Under the pieces are notes generated by a model. It was given only the letters and a program-made list of their open reading frames with translations, made no database searches and had not been told where the DNA came from. A program made the position numbers and the translations under genes. Shown one piece after another: positions 1 through 5,703 of a stretch of DNA of 5,703 nt (position 1 is the first letter of the stretch; each line of letters opens with the position of its first letter). The stretch comes from a bacterium (GTDB lineage Bacteria; UBP15; UBA6099; DSWB01), in NCBI GenBank assembly GCA_020061125.1, contig JAGUYV010000306.1, forward strand, positions 1 to 5,703, read 5' to 3'.

Positions 1-251
1 ACGATGCCGGCCAGGGGGCCGGCGCCGGGAACGGCGTCCGCGACCTGTTCCACATGCCGGGGCAGTTCGGGCGCTTCGGGCCGCAGTCCCACGGCCAGAA
101 CCCTGTCGAACAGGGGCGTGATTACATGCGCCACATGGGCCAGCAGGGGCCGGCCGCCGAAATCCAGCCATTCCTTGGGCTGCCCGTAGCGGCTGCTCCG
201 GCCGCCGCACAGAATTGCCGCAGTCATTTTGGGTTGCGCATCAATGCTCAT
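1..251 (-). CDS. mobA: MobA-like molybdenum cofactor guanylyltransferase, N-terminal part (cut by window edge)
   Basis: The visible 83 residues are the nucleotide-binding start of an NTP-transferase. Residues 14-26 read LCGGRSSRYGQPK, matching the family signature LxGGxSxRxGxxK that binds the GTP phosphates. Residues 76-83 read PGAGPLAGI-like (GPLAGI at 78-83), a second block typical of MobA. MobA transfers GMP from GTP to molybdopterin to make the guanine-dinucleotide cofactor of DMSO-reductase-type enzymes, in the cytoplasm. I chose the ATG at 251 because GAGG lies at 261-264 with a 9-base spacer; the alternative ATG at 227 has no Shine-Dalgarno sequence. The 3' end lies beyond position 1. 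No other cofactor gene is visible, so a related nucleotidyltransferase (for example a MocA-like CTP/GTP enzyme) cannot be excluded. The gene follows the dehydrogenase on the same strand after a 174-base gap. Confidence 0.82.
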   Translation of the reverse strand, partial: MSIDAQPKMTAAILCGGRSSRYGQPKEWLDFGGRPLLAHVAHVITPLFDRVLAVGLRPEAPELPRHVEQVADAVPGAGPLAGI

Positions 252-294
252 CCGGTCACGCCTCGCGCGCACTCATGCGCTCGAAGTTCATAAT

Positions 295-425: not shown

Positions 426-1520
426 TTACTGATCGAGAAACAGTTCCACGCCGCGCTTCTGGATGCGGGGAAGAAAATCATCGGGTTCGAGCGCGGATTC
501 CGCGGCGTGAACGCCCGGTTTGTTGAGTTCGCCGCGAGCGATCATGAGTGCGCCTTCCACGGCCGGAATGCTGGTGATGTCCGCAATGTGCCCCACGCCG
601 CTGTATGTGTGGTGCGCGGATTTGCCGCCTTTTTCGCCGTAAGCGTCAATGCGGAACACGGATTTGTCTATGCCGCCCTTGCCGAATATGCCGGCCTGTT
701 CAATGGGCAGGAAGATGTTTGCGAGCTTGTCGCGCTTTTTGGGCGTGTTGCTCAAACCGAGCAGGCCCACTGTGGTGGCCAGCGCCGCGATATAAGGCGG
801 GTGAATGCCGCCGCGCAGACTCACTTCCTCGAGTCCTGGCAGGTTGCGAGGCACGCTCACGGATTCGGCGTGCCCCGTGTAATACACGGGCAGTTTGCCC
901 ATGGGCGCCGGAAACTCCACGACTTTGCGGCCCATGCCGGTTTTGACCTTGATTTCCCTGCCGTTCTTCCACTGAAGGGTGTGGCCGCTGAAAATGTGCA
1001 GCACATGCTTGATGTTGGCGAGGCCGATGTCCTCGTTGGAGCCGCCAGCCCAGCTTATGTGGATCTTCCTGCACTTGTCCATGGACTGGTAGCCTTTTTT
1101 GGCCAGCAGGTTGGTGATGCCCGGAGAATTGCCCAGGCCCGCTATCACGGTTACGCCCTCGGCCTTTGCCCGGTTGTCCAGGGACGCGGCGTCCAGGTAT
1201 GCGTCGTAGTCGTCGCAGATGGACACATACGGGACTTTTGCGTCAAGGCACGCGCCGATGATTTTCTTCTCGAACATGTAGAACGGGCCGATGAACCCCA
1301 TGGCTACATCCGCGCCCGCCACCACGGACGAAACCGAAGCCGGGTCCATGGCGTCCACTTTCACGGCCGACGCCTTGGCGCCGGTCTCCTGGGCGAACGC
1401 CGCGGCTTTGTCAATATTCAAATCCGCGATGATAATCTCTTTGACATCCGTTTCCTCGTTCAAAAGCCGCACGGCCACTTTGGCCATGTCCCCGCAACCG
1501 CCCAGCACACAGATTTTCAT
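426..1520 (-). CDS. Saccharopine dehydrogenase-family oxidoreductase
   Basis: This is a complete 364-residue protein. It opens with a Rossmann fold: MKICVLGGCGDM at residues 1-12 contains the glycine-rich dinucleotide loop, and D33 after the second strand (IIIADLN) is the usual acidic residue that contacts the adenosine ribose and often favours NAD. AGLGNSPGITN at residues 127-137 is the G-x-x-PG motif typical of saccharopine reductase-like enzymes. The remaining half fits the substrate-binding domain of this family. The size matches single-domain bacterial members. Known members reduce or oxidise imine-linked amino acids (saccharopine, carboxynorspermidine, lysine derivatives); the substrate here cannot be read from sequence. 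The start at 1520 is preferred: a G-run (1530-1535) precedes it by 9 bases. The longer reading from 1592 would begin inside the -10 box at 1591-1596. It is transcribed divergently from tsaE. Confidence 0.9.
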   Translation of the reverse strand: MKICVLGGCGDMAKVAVRLLNEETDVKEIIIADLNIDKAAAFAQETGAKASAVKVDAMDPASVSSVVAGADVAMGFIGPFYMFEKKIIGACLDAKVPYVSICDDYDAYLDAASLDNRAKAEGVTVIAGLGNSPGITNLLAKKGYQSMDKCRKIHISWAGGSNEDIGLANIKHVLHIFSGHTLQWKNGREIKVKTGMGRKVVEFPAPMGKLPVYYTGHAESVSVPRNLPGLEEVSLRGGIHPPYIAALATTVGLLGLSNTPKKRDKLANIFLPIEQAGIFGKGGIDKSVFRIDAYGEKGGKSAHHTYSGVGHIADITSIPAVEGALMIARGELNKPGVHAAESALEPDDFLPRIQKRGVELFLDQ

Positions 1521-1590
1521 TTTGATTCGCCCCCCGTGCTTGATAGACCCCCGTTCGCGGCGCAGTTCCGCGAAACGAAGTCCCGGCGCC

Positions 1591-1599
1591 ATTATATCA
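1591..1599 (-). promoter_or_regulatory. Extended -10 promoter of the dehydrogenase gene
   Basis: The minus strand reads TGATATAAT, a perfect TATAAT with the extended TGn element. No good -35 hexamer lies 16-18 bases upstream, which an extended -10 can tolerate. The predicted start is near 1584, leaving a leader of about 64 bases before the ATG at 1520. The match also argues against translation starting at the ATG inside this box (1592). Confidence 0.6.
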
Positions 1600-1640: not shown

Positions 1641-1676
1641 GGTTTCTGGGCCTGATAAGCCATTCGGGTATTGTGC

Positions 1677-1685
1677 TGTTATATT
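1677..1685 (+). promoter_or_regulatory. Extended -10 promoter of tsaE
   Basis: TGTTATATT matches the extended -10 pattern TGnTATAAT with one mismatch. No convincing -35 box is present. Transcription would begin near 1691-1693, only about 5-7 bases before the tsaE ATG at 1698, so the message would be leaderless or nearly so. Confidence 0.4.
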
Positions 1686-1697
1686 ATTTCATTAAGC

Positions 1698-2165
1698 ATG
1701 AGCGCAGAGACTGGACGAACCATCGAGACAACGGGCGCGGCGCATACCGAAGCGCTGGGCCGCGCCGTGGGCGAAGTTGCCGAAGCGGGACTTTATCTCG
1801 CATTGGACGGAGAACTGGGCGGGGGCAAGACCACATTCGTGCGCGGTCTGGCCGCGGGCCTTGGGGCGGCAGCGCGCGTGGCCAGCCCCACCTTTGTCAT
1901 CATGCGCGAATATTGCGGACGGCTGCCATTGTATCATTGCGACTTTTACCGGCTGGAACACGGCGGGGACATTGCGGAACTGGAACTCGATGCCTGTCTG
2001 GAGCGGGGCGTGGTGGCTGCGGAGTGGGCGAGCCTGTTCGAGCCGCCGCGCGGTGCGCGTGTGCTGGCCGTGCATTTCGAGTGGACCGGCGACGAAGCGC
2101 GCCGCGTCACCATGACCGCGCATTGCGAACGCACGCGCAAACTGCTTGCCGGAATCAAGCTGTAA
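1698..2165 (+). CDS. tsaE: tRNA threonylcarbamoyladenosine biosynthesis ATPase TsaE
   Basis: This is a complete 155-residue protein of the usual TsaE (YjeE) size. The Walker A loop is GELGGGKTT at residues 38-46, with K44 and T45 for ATP phosphate and magnesium. The family blocks follow in order: SPTFVIMREY at 63-72, HCDFYRLEH at 80-88 and EW at 109-110. TsaE binds the TsaB-TsaD complex in the cytoplasm and uses ATP hydrolysis to reset it during t6A37 formation on ANN-decoding tRNAs. tsaB and tsaD are not in the window. I chose the ATG at 1698 because the family fold begins soon after it. A TTG at 1671 would add nine residues but lies upstream of the predicted promoter box. There is no clear Shine-Dalgarno sequence before 1698. 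It converges with gene A, leaving 36 bases that hold no good terminator. Confidence 0.93.
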   Translation: MSAETGRTIETTGAAHTEALGRAVGEVAEAGLYLALDGELGGGKTTFVRGLAAGLGAAARVASPTFVIMREYCGRLPLYHCDFYRLEHGGDIAELELDACLERGVVAAEWASLFEPPRGARVLAVHFEWTGDEARRVTMTAHCERTRKLLAGIKL

Positions 2166-2201: not shown

Positions 2202-3065
2202 TTACGGGCTGCTGCACAGTTCCGGAACGGCTGCGCCGCTTTCCATGCCGAATGTTTGTTTAAGCAGCACGAAGTCCTTGATGTCAATGATTTCGTCGCC
2301 GTTAAAGTCCATGTCCGGATTGTAGGCGCTTTCGCCTTTTATGGAGCCGAATGGTTTTTTCAAGAGAACGACATCCGTGATATTGACAGCGCCGTCGCAG
2401 TTGAAGTCGCCGGTTTGGGGGCCGGCGCCGAGGCGAACGGTTCCCGCATCGGTCTGTCCTGTTGCAGCGGCCGTGACCCTGGCCGCATCCCGGTAGCCTG
2501 TCCCGCCGGATTCGCTTCCCGGAACATACATATAACCGGAATCGCCGGGGATCATCACGCGGATCGTTAGGGTTGCGGTCGCGCCTTCGGCAACGCTCGC
2601 CGTGAATGTACCGTCAGCGGCTGTTGTGGCCTGGCCCATTTCAACATCGCCGTTCATGAGCTTGATGGTGATGCCAGGAACCGGCTTGTCGGGATACCCG
2701 GATCCGGGCAGGGTGCCCCCGGTCGTGTCATACTCGGCGACAATGCCCGTAATCGTTCGCGCGGGTTCTGTAATGACTGTCACGCAATTGCTGCGCTCGC
2801 TTAATTGACCCTGTCCGTTCACCGCTTTGACCACGAAATAGTTGTACGGCATAATGCCGGAATCCGTCATTGTCCAATAGGTCGAGGTTGCTGGAATCAG
2901 GCCCTGGTTTTGCTGATAGAGCGTGTCTTGGCCGCAATCGCGAAGGGAATACACATGATATCCAGACAGGCCGGACAGTCCCGTTCCATCGGTATTTTGA
3001 ACCGGCGCGTTCCATATGAACTCGATTCCTTGCTGGCTCGATAAGGCGACAAGGCCGGTAGGCGG
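2202..3065 (-). repeat. Paralogous C-terminal cassette, copy in protein A
   Basis: Residues 331-617 of A (Fn3-like, prealbumin-like, dockerin and tail) align along their whole length with the last 287 residues of B. Shared landmarks are APVQNT-D/N-G, SGYHVY versus AGFHIF, GGT-x-x-G-x-GYP, NITD, DFVLLK and a final C-S-(S)-P. Over the 51 residues from the first-loop cysteine to the final FG I count 31 identities and no gaps. The DNA of this stretch is diverged (about three quarters identical over 65 bases compared by hand), so the duplication is not recent. Confidence 0.85.
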
Positions 3066-4055
3066 CATGGGCGCGACTTGCTTGTCCACGAAAAACACAT
3101 ATTCCTCCGCGGAGAAACTTCCGGCACTGTTGGTGGCGCGCATGGAAATATAGCTCTTGCCGTTGGGCAGCGCGTTCCAGAAAGCCTGGGGCAGTTTCCA
3201 GTTTTCCGTGAACCGGCTGGAATTCACAGTTTCGGCAAGAGTGGTCCAGGCGGCCACATCGCCGCATGGCCCTTGTGTGGAGCATGCCTGTATTTCGATG
3301 AGCTGGATCTTCTCGTCGCCGGTGTCGAATACATCCACATCATATTCGGCGGTGTTCGCCGAGAGCACGCTCTGGAATGGTGAAACCTTGTTCACAATTA
3401 TTGGACCGGACGAGCAAGTGATGTATGCCTCGAATTTGTCGTCAATGAGTTCAACAACATCGTAATAATACCATGCTAGTACTTTGGTTGACATTGCTGC
3501 GTTTGAAGAATAATAAACCAGGCTGGTCATTTCTCCAGGGGCCAATGACATGTTTTCGAAATTGAGATTCATGAGAATGAAATTGGGGTTGTTGGGCGGC
3601 CAGAGGTCGCTGAAAAGATTAGCCTTGCCGCCAAAAACATAGTGTGTGGTTCCCTCATATGTGCCGGGACATTCGCCGCCTGCAGTATCTGAAAAGAAAT
3701 TTTGCGGATCGAGATCGCAGGCAGGACCGGAAAACACCGCCGGATCGTATTCAATCGCTGTCTGGAATCCACCGACCGGGCTGGGCCAGGATGGATCCTG
3801 CTGAAACACGACATTGAAGGATTGGGCGCCGGAGCAGGAATCGAGTTTTATGAGTACATGAGAGCCGTCAAAGGCGTTGACCGCATTTGTGCAGGGCATT
3901 CCGGAAATATCGGCGGAGGCGGGAAGTATGCAGACTGCCGATTGAGGCCGCGCGGGGGTTGACGCAAGACAGCAGAATACAGCGCACGCCAAGGCAATGC
4001 CGATGCGCGGGAATCTGTCACCGTTCCGTCGAAAAGCTGCCGGAAATGATCTCAT
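2202..4055 (-). CDS. Exported multidomain protein with C-terminal dockerin (protein A)
   Basis: This is a complete 617-residue protein. Residues 1-17 are basic, 18-31 hydrophobic, with likely signal peptidase I cleavage near 38-41; no proper lipobox is seen. Residues about 42-217 form a candidate cohesin/CBM-like beta-sandwich (GGFQTAIEYDPAVF at 95-108). Residues 223-325 look Ig-like, 328-430 Fn3-like, and 433-543 prealbumin-like (carboxypeptidase regulatory type; GSGYPDKPVPGI at 451-462). The dockerin spans 548-603 with two complete calcium loops, DFNCDGAVNITD (550-561) and DFNGDEIIDIKD (583-594). The predicted mature chain has 12 cysteines, an even number that suits disulfides outside the cytoplasm. 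Dockerins bind cohesins, so the protein may attach to a surface or scaffold partner; no catalytic domain is visible. GGGAG at 4060-4064 precedes the ATG by 4 bases. The gene region encoding the N-terminal half is more AT-rich than its neighbours. Confidence 0.85.
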   Translation of the reverse strand: MRSFPAAFRRNGDRFPRIGIALACAVFCCLASTPARPQSAVCILPASADISGMPCTNAVNAFDGSHVLIKLDSCSGAQSFNVVFQQDPSWPSPVGGFQTAIEYDPAVFSGPACDLDPQNFFSDTAGGECPGTYEGTTHYVFGGKANLFSDLWPPNNPNFILMNLNFENMSLAPGEMTSLVYYSSNAAMSTKVLAWYYYDVVELIDDKFEAYITCSSGPIIVNKVSPFQSVLSANTAEYDVDVFDTGDEKIQLIEIQACSTQGPCGDVAAWTTLAETVNSSRFTENWKLPQAFWNALPNGKSYISMRATNSAGSFSAEEYVFFVDKQVAPMPPTGLVALSSQQGIEFIWNAPVQNTDGTGLSGLSGYHVYSLRDCGQDTLYQQNQGLIPATSTYWTMTDSGIMPYNYFVVKAVNGQGQLSERSNCVTVITEPARTITGIVAEYDTTGGTLPGSGYPDKPVPGITIKLMNGDVEMGQATTAADGTFTASVAEGATATLTIRVMIPGDSGYMYVPGSESGGTGYRDAARVTAAATGQTDAGTVRLGAGPQTGDFNCDGAVNITDVVLLKKPFGSIKGESAYNPDMDFNGDEIIDIKDFVLLKQTFGMESGAAVPELCSSP

Positions 4056-4221: not shown

Positions 4222-5085
4222 TCATGGGCTGCAAGGGGACGGGTTCACCGGGCTGCCGGGGAGGCCGAAGTTGGGTTTGAGGAGAACGAAGTCGCTGATG
4301 TCCACGATCTGGTCGCCGTTGATGTCGGCGTTCACATTGTAGCCGTCTTCGCCCAGGGCCTTGCCGTATGCGGGTTTTAGCAGCACCATGTCCGTGATGT
4401 TCACGACCCAGTCGCAGTTGATGTCGCCCGCGGTGGGGCCGTGTCCCAAAGGCGCGACGGTTACGGTTTTGAACGCACCCGGGGATATGGTGACATCCTT
4501 GACCAGGGTACGCACTGCGGTGCCGCTGTTCATGGTGCCGTCGTCGTACAGGTAGCCGGATTCCTCGGTGATCACGGCCTGGAGGGTGAATGTTGCGCCC
4601 GTGGGGTTGCCGGTCACGGCCAGCGCGAACGAGCCGTCCGCGCCTGTAACCGCCGAGGCGATCTGCGTCTGGCCGCTCATGAGATACATTGTCAGCCCGG
4701 GCACGGCAACTTTGGGATAGCCCGTGCCCGCCACGGTGCCGCCGCTCATGTCCCGCCGCGTCACGGTTCCGAGCACGGCCTGGGGCGCGGTGACCGCGGC
4801 CGCGCATGTGGACGATGCGCTCAAGGTTCCGGATTCGTTCTCCGCGGTGAGGAAGTAATAGTAAAGTTCATTTTCCGACACGGTATCGTCGGAATAGGAC
4901 AGGGTTTCTGCGACGATAAGCGATGTGTCGAGTTGCACGGAATCCGTGCCGTAGCATGATGAGCCGCGGAAAATGTGGAAACCGGCCAGGTCCGTGAGAT
5001 CGGATCCGTTGGTGTTCTGAACGGGCGCAACCCATGTCACGGTGACGAGGGCTGTGGTGGAGGATGCGGCCACGGTGTCCGGCGG
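4222..5085 (-). repeat. Paralogous C-terminal cassette, copy in protein B
   Basis: Visible residues 207-493 of B match residues 331-617 of A in domain order and length. Both copies have exactly four cysteines: C250, C300, C430 and C491 here, against C374, C424, C553 and C614 in A. Spacing within each pair is identical (50 and 61 residues), and the distance between pairs differs by one residue. The regions upstream of the cassette do not look alike in the two proteins. Confidence 0.85.
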
Positions 5086-5703
5086 GTTGGGCGTGACGCT
5101 CGACGCCAGGGTCGGGGTGATGATGCGCGCGATGTTGTTGCTGTCCTCGTTCCCGAGGCTGTCCATGGCGCGCACGGTGAAACTGTGCGCCATGTTGTTT
5201 TGAAGGCCGGAGACATCCAACAGGACGCCGGTGGTGGAGAAGTCCGCGGACGCAAAATTGTAGGGCCGGGAACCCGTGCTGTAGTAAACATTGTAGGTGA
5301 TGGGCGGGGCGGAGTCCGAGGCTGCGCTCCATGTGAGGCGCACGGCGCCGCCGGTTCCCAGGTCCTGGGCCATGGCCAGGCCCCCGAACACGGGCGCGTC
5401 CGCGTCTATAACTACCGTTCCATTCGCGCTCCACAAGGATTTCTTTTGCGCCGAATCCACGGTCTGCACCGCGAAATAGTATGTGCCCGTGGCGTTGAGA
5501 TTCAGGACAATGGAAGTCGAGGCCCCGGCTGTGGTGAGGCCTTCCTGGATTGCGCCGGAATACACATCCGCTCCGCCCGCGGTCGTGCCCACGCGCACAT
5601 TGTAGCGCAGGAGCGCGGCGGGCGTTTCGATGTCGGATCCCGCGCTCCAGGACAGGCGCACCGGCCCCGGCGCGCTCGCCGGAACCGCGGAGGGGGCGCC
5701 TGC
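4222..5703 (-). CDS. Exported Fn3-repeat protein with C-terminal dockerin, C-terminal part (protein B, cut by window edge)
   Basis: 493 residues are visible, open to the right edge; the true start is outside. The in-frame GTG at 5661 lies inside an Fn3 domain and is not a start. Three Fn3-like domains cover visible residues about 8-101, 103-200 and 205-305. A prealbumin-like domain follows (about 308-420; GTGYPKVAVPGLT at 326-338), then a dockerin at 425-480 with calcium loops DINCDWVVNITD (427-438) and DINGDQIVDISD (460-471). The segment LRYNVRVGTTAGGADV at 32-47 resembles a sequence common in FG-GAP/VCBS-repeat surface proteins, so such repeats may lie upstream (inference). No enzyme domain is visible. 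The likely role is extracellular attachment or assembly through the dockerin. The last 287 residues are paralogous to A, the next gene downstream. A run of eight T follows the stop directly, without a convincing hairpin. Confidence 0.85.
   Translation of the reverse strand, partial: AGAPSAVPASAPGPVRLSWSAGSDIETPAALLRYNVRVGTTAGGADVYSGAIQEGLTTAGASTSIVLNLNATGTYYFAVQTVDSAQKKSLWSANGTVVIDADAPVFGGLAMAQDLGTGGAVRLTWSAASDSAPPITYNVYYSTGSRPYNFASADFSTTGVLLDVSGLQNNMAHSFTVRAMDSLGNEDSNNIARIITPTLASSVTPNPPDTVAASSTTALVTVTWVAPVQNTNGSDLTDLAGFHIFRGSSCYGTDSVQLDTSLIVAETLSYSDDTVSENELYYYFLTAENESGTLSASSTCAAAVTAPQAVLGTVTRRDMSGGTVAGTGYPKVAVPGLTMYLMSGQTQIASAVTGADGSFALAVTGNPTGATFTLQAVITEESGYLYDDGTMNSGTAVRTLVKDVTISPGAFKTVTVAPLGHGPTAGDINCDWVVNITDMVLLKPAYGKALGEDGYNVNADINGDQIVDISDFVLLKPNFGLPGSPVNPSPCSP

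Follow-up and report, generated by a model that had tools for sequence, protein, structure and literature searches.

The window (the whole stretch of DNA analysed, 5,703 nucleotides) is an entire contig, C88, of a 4.1-Mb source genome that lies in 513 contigs and is 79% complete. Reading of its open reading frames revealed two adjoining paralogous genes on the minus strand, here called A and B, the second of which is cut by the contig end, leaving its 5′ end open. The genes, their C-terminal dockerins and the two cysteines of interest in each are located as follows.

2202..4055, minus strand: gene A, a secreted protein of 617 residues with a C-terminal dockerin, ending ELCSSP (open reading frame; PF00404)
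2253..2411, minus strand: dockerin of A, Pfam match, residues 549-601 (PF00404, 33.2 bits; the model folds as a dockerin)
2373..2408, minus strand: first calcium loop of A, DFNCDGAVNITD (read from the sequence)
2397..2399, minus strand: TGC codon of Cys553 of A, loop-1 position 4, one proposed half of the clasp
2274..2309, minus strand: second calcium loop of A, DFNGDEIIDIKD (read from the sequence)
2214..2216, minus strand: TGC codon of Cys614 of A, fourth residue from the C terminus, the other proposed half
4222..5703, minus strand: gene B, paralogue of A, 493 residues seen, with a C-terminal dockerin, ending PSPCSP (open reading frame)
4276..4431, minus strand: dockerin of B, Pfam match (PF00404; the model folds as a dockerin)
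4390..4425, minus strand: first calcium loop of B, DINCDWVVNITD (read from the sequence)
4414..4416, minus strand: TGC codon of Cys430 of B, loop-1 position 4
4291..4326, minus strand: second calcium loop of B, DINGDQIVDISD (read from the sequence)
4231..4233, minus strand: TGC codon of Cys491 of B, third residue from the C terminus

The domains of A and B are genuine type-I dockerins, both scoring above the curated cut-off of PF00404 (Dockerin_1; 22.9 bits), with 27.2 bits for B, which also matches fn3 (31.2 bits). In each protein, both predicted calcium loops carry ligands at positions 1, 3, 5, 9 and 12, with the first ligand of a loop taken as its position 1, and by this numbering the loop-1 cysteine stands at position 4 and the tail cysteine at loop-2 position 32. 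In EF-hand-type loops the residue at position 4 does not coordinate calcium, so a cysteine there is free to join a bond. The two pairs recorded in the first-pass annotation, C553/C614 in A and C430/C491 in B, each 61 residues apart, are thus confirmed within domains that match PF00404, and the positions listed in that annotation for A (2214-2399) correspond to its two cysteine codons. Further paired cysteines occur in other domains of the two proteins, where C374/C424 of A corresponds to C250/C300 of B.

By eye, the N-terminal part of A that precedes its fn3-like region (3300-3947, minus strand) looks cohesin-like (GFQTAIEYDPAVF, LAPGE), a resemblance for which neither Pfam profiles nor a sequence search against solved structures gave support. 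The rest of the contig looks, again by eye, housekeeping-like, with a TsaE-like ATPase (1671-2165, plus strand), a saccharopine dehydrogenase-like gene (426-1592, minus strand) and a MobA-like gene (3-272, minus strand).

A profile search identified six dockerins in the source genome. All five that are C-terminal (A, B and those on contigs C320, C212 and C17) combine NCD in loop 1 with a cysteine 2-3 residues before the stop, and they keep this cysteine at the end of tails that are otherwise unlike (MESGAAVPEL, LPGSPVNPSP, RSLMTPPTGL, NELDAAPSSDPVL) and differ in length by three residues. On C320, the carrier is a frame of 2,019 residues with a beta-propeller and many fn3 domains; as it holds only seven cysteines in all, the presence of one in loop 1 and another at the extreme end cannot be put down to chance. 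The sixth dockerin, on C118, is N-terminal in its protein and has cysteines at loop-1 position -1 and loop-2 position 28 (its second loop carries an insertion, and the numbering was anchored on position 12). The first-pass annotation had taken a spacing of exactly 61 residues, kept while the sequence drifts, as the sign of a bond. This argument does not survive the comparison, because the five C-terminal spacings are 61, 61, 61, 64 and 64, and the range across the order is 60-64.

We extended the search to seven genomes of the phylum, all from one order, using a profile of the five dockerins of the source genome together with the Pfam model, which yielded 33 C-terminal dockerins. The loop-1 cysteine is present in 26 of these, all of which also have the tail cysteine, leaving none unpaired. 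Among the seven that lack the loop-1 cysteine, four lack the tail cysteine as well and form an orthologous set ending KEETW or KEQAW, with another pair inside the linker, while the other three have the tail cysteine and exactly one more, located in the linker (L091, L095) or at position -6 (L100). The resulting contingency table ([[4,3],[0,26]]) gives a one-sided Fisher P value of 0.0009 over all 33 sequences. When the sequences are clustered at 90%, 70% and 50% identity, P becomes 0.043, 0.066 and 0.2 (not significant), respectively. With a small set of relatives, some of them recent duplicates, and a P value that weakens with clustering, the association taken alone is suggestive, not conclusive. 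Each of the 33 domains, counted from 12 residues upstream through to its end, holds an even number of cysteines, and the same is true of all 14 clusters formed at 70% identity and all 10 formed at 50%; the mean is 2.5 per domain, and by chance half of the counts would be odd.

Tail endings vary widely across the order (CSSP, CSP, CQN, CREK, CKP, CAP, CQR, CQ and CDPLYDAR), and in most members of the NCD type only 1-3 residues separate the cysteine from the end, with 7-17 residues following it in others. The terminal C-S-x0-1-P that had been put forward as a signature of the arrangement occurs only in A and B among these tails. Synonymous codon change at the cysteines was considered as a further line of evidence and discarded as uninformative, nearly all codons being TGC (25 of 26 in the tail and all in the loop).

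A subfamily with a degenerate first loop bears directly on the role of the loop-1 cysteine. It comprises 14 copies in four genomes (G003-G006), located at protein ends and in many cases in frames of ~1,340-1,420 residues (L088, L090, L092, L093, L096, L098, L104 and others), with a degraded loop 1 that mostly reads GNPTCRPTVHVANL. Compared with the consensus GDxNCDGxVNITDL, its ligands have been lost at four positions (D1N, N3T or N3A, D5R or D5S, and D12N or D12S), whereas loop 2 is intact (DFNMDGKISIHD and similar). Both cysteines are nonetheless kept in 14 of 14 copies, with a tail of LLCDPLYDAR or similar. The cysteine thus outlives its loop, which argues that it is more than a part of the NCD spelling. 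More tentatively, and at somewhat below even odds in our judgement, a disulfide may have replaced calcium in the first half of these dockerins of the source order: the GNPTCRPTVHVANL loop would be unable to bind calcium, the bond alone would fix that half, and the result would be half-calcium-independent, locked modules.

To place these observations in a wider context, we surveyed 386 genomes from many families with the same profile, which gave 44 C-terminal dockerin-like domains with a readable stop, all from other phyla. Neither cysteine is present in 40 of them, two have only the loop-1 cysteine, two have only the tail cysteine and none has both. In a separate contig scan, Ruminococcus and other Clostridia (L030, L051, L055, L056, L072, L073) carried NCD in loop 1 with no later cysteine partner, some Planctomycetes carried a tail cysteine without one in loop 1, and one planctomycetotal domain (L058) combined NCD with a linker pair and a terminal cysteine. 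Since NCD outside the order mostly occurs without a tail cysteine, the loop-1 cysteine needs no partner in general, and NCD, which had been suggested as a marker of the clasp, does not serve as one in Clostridia and others. The expectation that the two cysteines co-occur therefore stands inside the order (26 of 26, none alone) and fails as a general rule outside it; the loop-1/tail pair is largely specific to the source order. In dockerin-like domains from Roseateles/Pelomonas (L014 and L015, both at 2501-2683), position 10 of loop 1 is a cysteine and the sequence ends TTCP; this may represent an independent clasp at a different site.

Both dockerins were modelled with AlphaFold from the window sequences and distant relatives, which gave well-predicted cores (block mean pLDDT >85, residues 11-60) and low-confidence tails (mean pLDDT of 68 and 59 for A and of 67 and 49 for B). 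For both, the best PDB match is 2y3n_B (A: Z 8.9, r.m.s.d. 2.3, 60 aligned; B: Z 9.4, r.m.s.d. 1.9, 60 aligned), and the next-ranked fold matches are other dockerins. The B model has bridge residues at 5 and 67, given without partners. The matched structure, the type II-like dockerin of Bacteroides cellulosolvens Cel48, also ranks first by sequence among solved structures (E = 1.1e-13), but its loop-1 position 4 is glycine and the aligned stretch contains no cysteine.

Intramolecular clasps have been described in cellulosomal dockerins, and one paper on the subject is reportedly that of Slutzki et al. The known examples are non-covalent, namely a ring-stacking contact between Tyr5 and Pro66 in Cel48S of C. 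thermocellum (PMC4728124) and one between Trp651 and Pro727 in DocScaA of R. flavefaciens (PMC4728124, PMC5934362). In the sequence numbering used here, Tyr5 of Cel48S is loop-1 position -1 and Pro66 is loop-2 position 28. The arrangement that we propose resembles these clasps in joining the N-terminal edge of the domain to the tail after the last helix, and the C118 pair occupies positions identical to those of Cel48S. It differs in that the contact would be a disulfide, usually placed five residues further on, at loop-1 position 4. The aromatic residue at -1 is absent (threonine in A, alanine in B), with proline at loop-2 position 29 in both, which puts A and B outside the aromatic-proline class, though they would work like clasped dockerins. 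Ruminococcal and clostridial NCD dockerins share the cysteine at loop-1 position 4 and, having no tail cysteine, have no such clasp.

The positions of the paired cysteines shift in step, with (4, 31-35) in the loop-1 type, (-1, 28) in C118 and (-4, 24) in an internal dockerin of another genome (G001:C20). A later position at the N-terminal end is thus paired with a later one at the C-terminal end, which fits a tail running parallel to the N-terminal edge. The pair at (-6, 34) in G001:C117 is an exception to this register. Two proteins of an unrelated genome (G302) also have a cysteine at -1, with a tail cysteine at 29 in the one that was numbered, and further cysteines are present.

Disulfide-containing docking modules are known from fungi (Piromyces, Neocallimastix), where the fold is unrelated and there are no calcium loops. 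A fungal dockerin-bearing enzyme has been reported (PMC10485095), and engineered intermolecular disulfides between cohesin and dockerin (Bugada 2025) are cited in a review (PMC12484212). We found no description of a disulfide inside a bacterial dockerin in the open-access literature, the coverage of which is partial, so that a prior report is possible.

Among the genes of the source genome is one for a VKOR-family oxidase (G000:C387; E = 2.2e-26), which contains a CPYC motif. Enzymes of this family drive disulfide formation in exported proteins. No match to DsbA of PF01323 was found in this 79%-complete genome.

Only one cohesin match in the genome, again at 79% completeness, exceeded the cut-off (C118; PF00963, 40.5 bits). 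The protein (L076, L219) has a lipoprotein-like signal, LFNGC, and is encoded on the same strand as, and near, a protein with a dockerin directly after its signal peptide; judged from sequence, the two are a possible surface cohesin-dockerin pair outside any cellulosome. By inference, the C118 cohesin could also be a partner of dockerins of the A and B type. No glycosidase family was matched in the three carriers scanned (A, B and C320), which have fn3 and propeller domains instead. A cellulosome was considered and rejected, given a single cohesin, no multi-cohesin scaffoldin and no glycoside hydrolase in A, B or C320 of this 79%-complete genome.

Some EF-hand- or dockerin-like proteins of the order have a C-terminal CxVCDDD...C within ~30 residues of the stop (for example, CLVCDDDASPTSYTDCLP and CTVCDDDDGTPESPCYY). 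The carriers are L226-L231 (G003, G004, G005) and L225 (G000:C409:4747-4767), and the ending may serve as a C-terminal tag or form a separate knot held by metal or disulfides.

Taken together, we consider it probable (roughly 0.8) that the C-terminal dockerins of A and B contain an intramolecular disulfide between loop-1 position 4 and the near-terminal cysteine, as a covalent counterpart of the Tyr-Pro and Trp-Pro clasps. From the co-occurrence of the cysteines, their even counts, their survival without the loop-1 ligands, the dockerin-fold models and the VKOR oxidase, we infer the bond itself, how it is placed in space and its contribution to stability. After export, VKOR (with a thiol partner) would close the disulfide, which would fasten the tail of 9-12 residues beyond the last helix to the N-terminal edge of the domain, keep the two loop-helix halves joined and shield the free C-terminal end. 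In this way the clasp may stabilise the docking module of large secreted proteins.

An alternative is that the terminal cysteine acts as an anchoring or sorting tag, or forms an intermolecular disulfide with a surface partner such as the cohesin protein or with a second copy, the loop-1 cysteine being incidental. Its closeness to the end in most NCD-type members would suit such a role, as would the presence in the genome of a cohesin protein with a lipoprotein-like signal, and the CxVCDDD...C endings of EF-hand-like proteins suggest that a C-terminal cysteine is a theme in this order. We nevertheless regard this as unlikely, because within the order the loop-1 and tail cysteines are gained and lost together and their count per domain is always even, because some members continue for 7-17 residues past the tail cysteine, and because the same arrangement occurs internally (G001:C20) and N-terminally (C118), where a C-terminal tag is impossible. 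The cysteines might also be free thiols, with NCD a common inherited spelling and the terminal cysteine hitch-hiking in a slowly changing family. The Clostridia, Ruminococcus among them, that have NCD without a later cysteine are in keeping with this, as is the relatedness by descent of the order's members, but each of the tails, differing in sequence and length, keeps its cysteine, the cysteine stays in the TCR subfamily where the loop consensus around it has been destroyed, and the large carriers contain few cysteines (7 in 2,019 residues). We therefore think free thiols distinctly improbable; the even counts, the internal and N-terminal examples and the degraded-loop subfamily weaken both of these readings.

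It is also conceivable that the bond is real and acts as a redox switch, reduction releasing the tail and altering cohesin binding. The cysteine is part of the first calcium loop, and neighbouring residues make contact with the cohesin in type-I complexes (loop residues S11-T12 bind the cohesin; PMC4728124). Nothing that we found points to regulation, however, and we rate such a switch as very improbable. Extracellular disulfides of this kind are usually structural.

The structural disulfide, closing loop 1 onto the C-terminal tail, thus remains our preferred reading, and these dockerins are probably a lineage-specific, covalently clasped variant. The first-pass annotation had proposed that a covalent clasp ending at the C terminus would be a distinct dockerin subtype, and the co-occurrence of the cysteines in relatives lends sequence-level support to such a candidate. 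Among non-cellulosomal bacteria, dockerin termini would repeatedly have gained cross-links at slightly shifted sites (loop 1, -1 and -4). Dockerins serve as parts for designed enzyme complexes, where calcium dependence and loose ends are weak points, and a disulfide in place of the aromatic clasp, and in one branch in place of the loop-1 calcium ligands, would offer ready-made stable modules. A disulfide-clasped family would also permit a direct test of what the clasp contributes.
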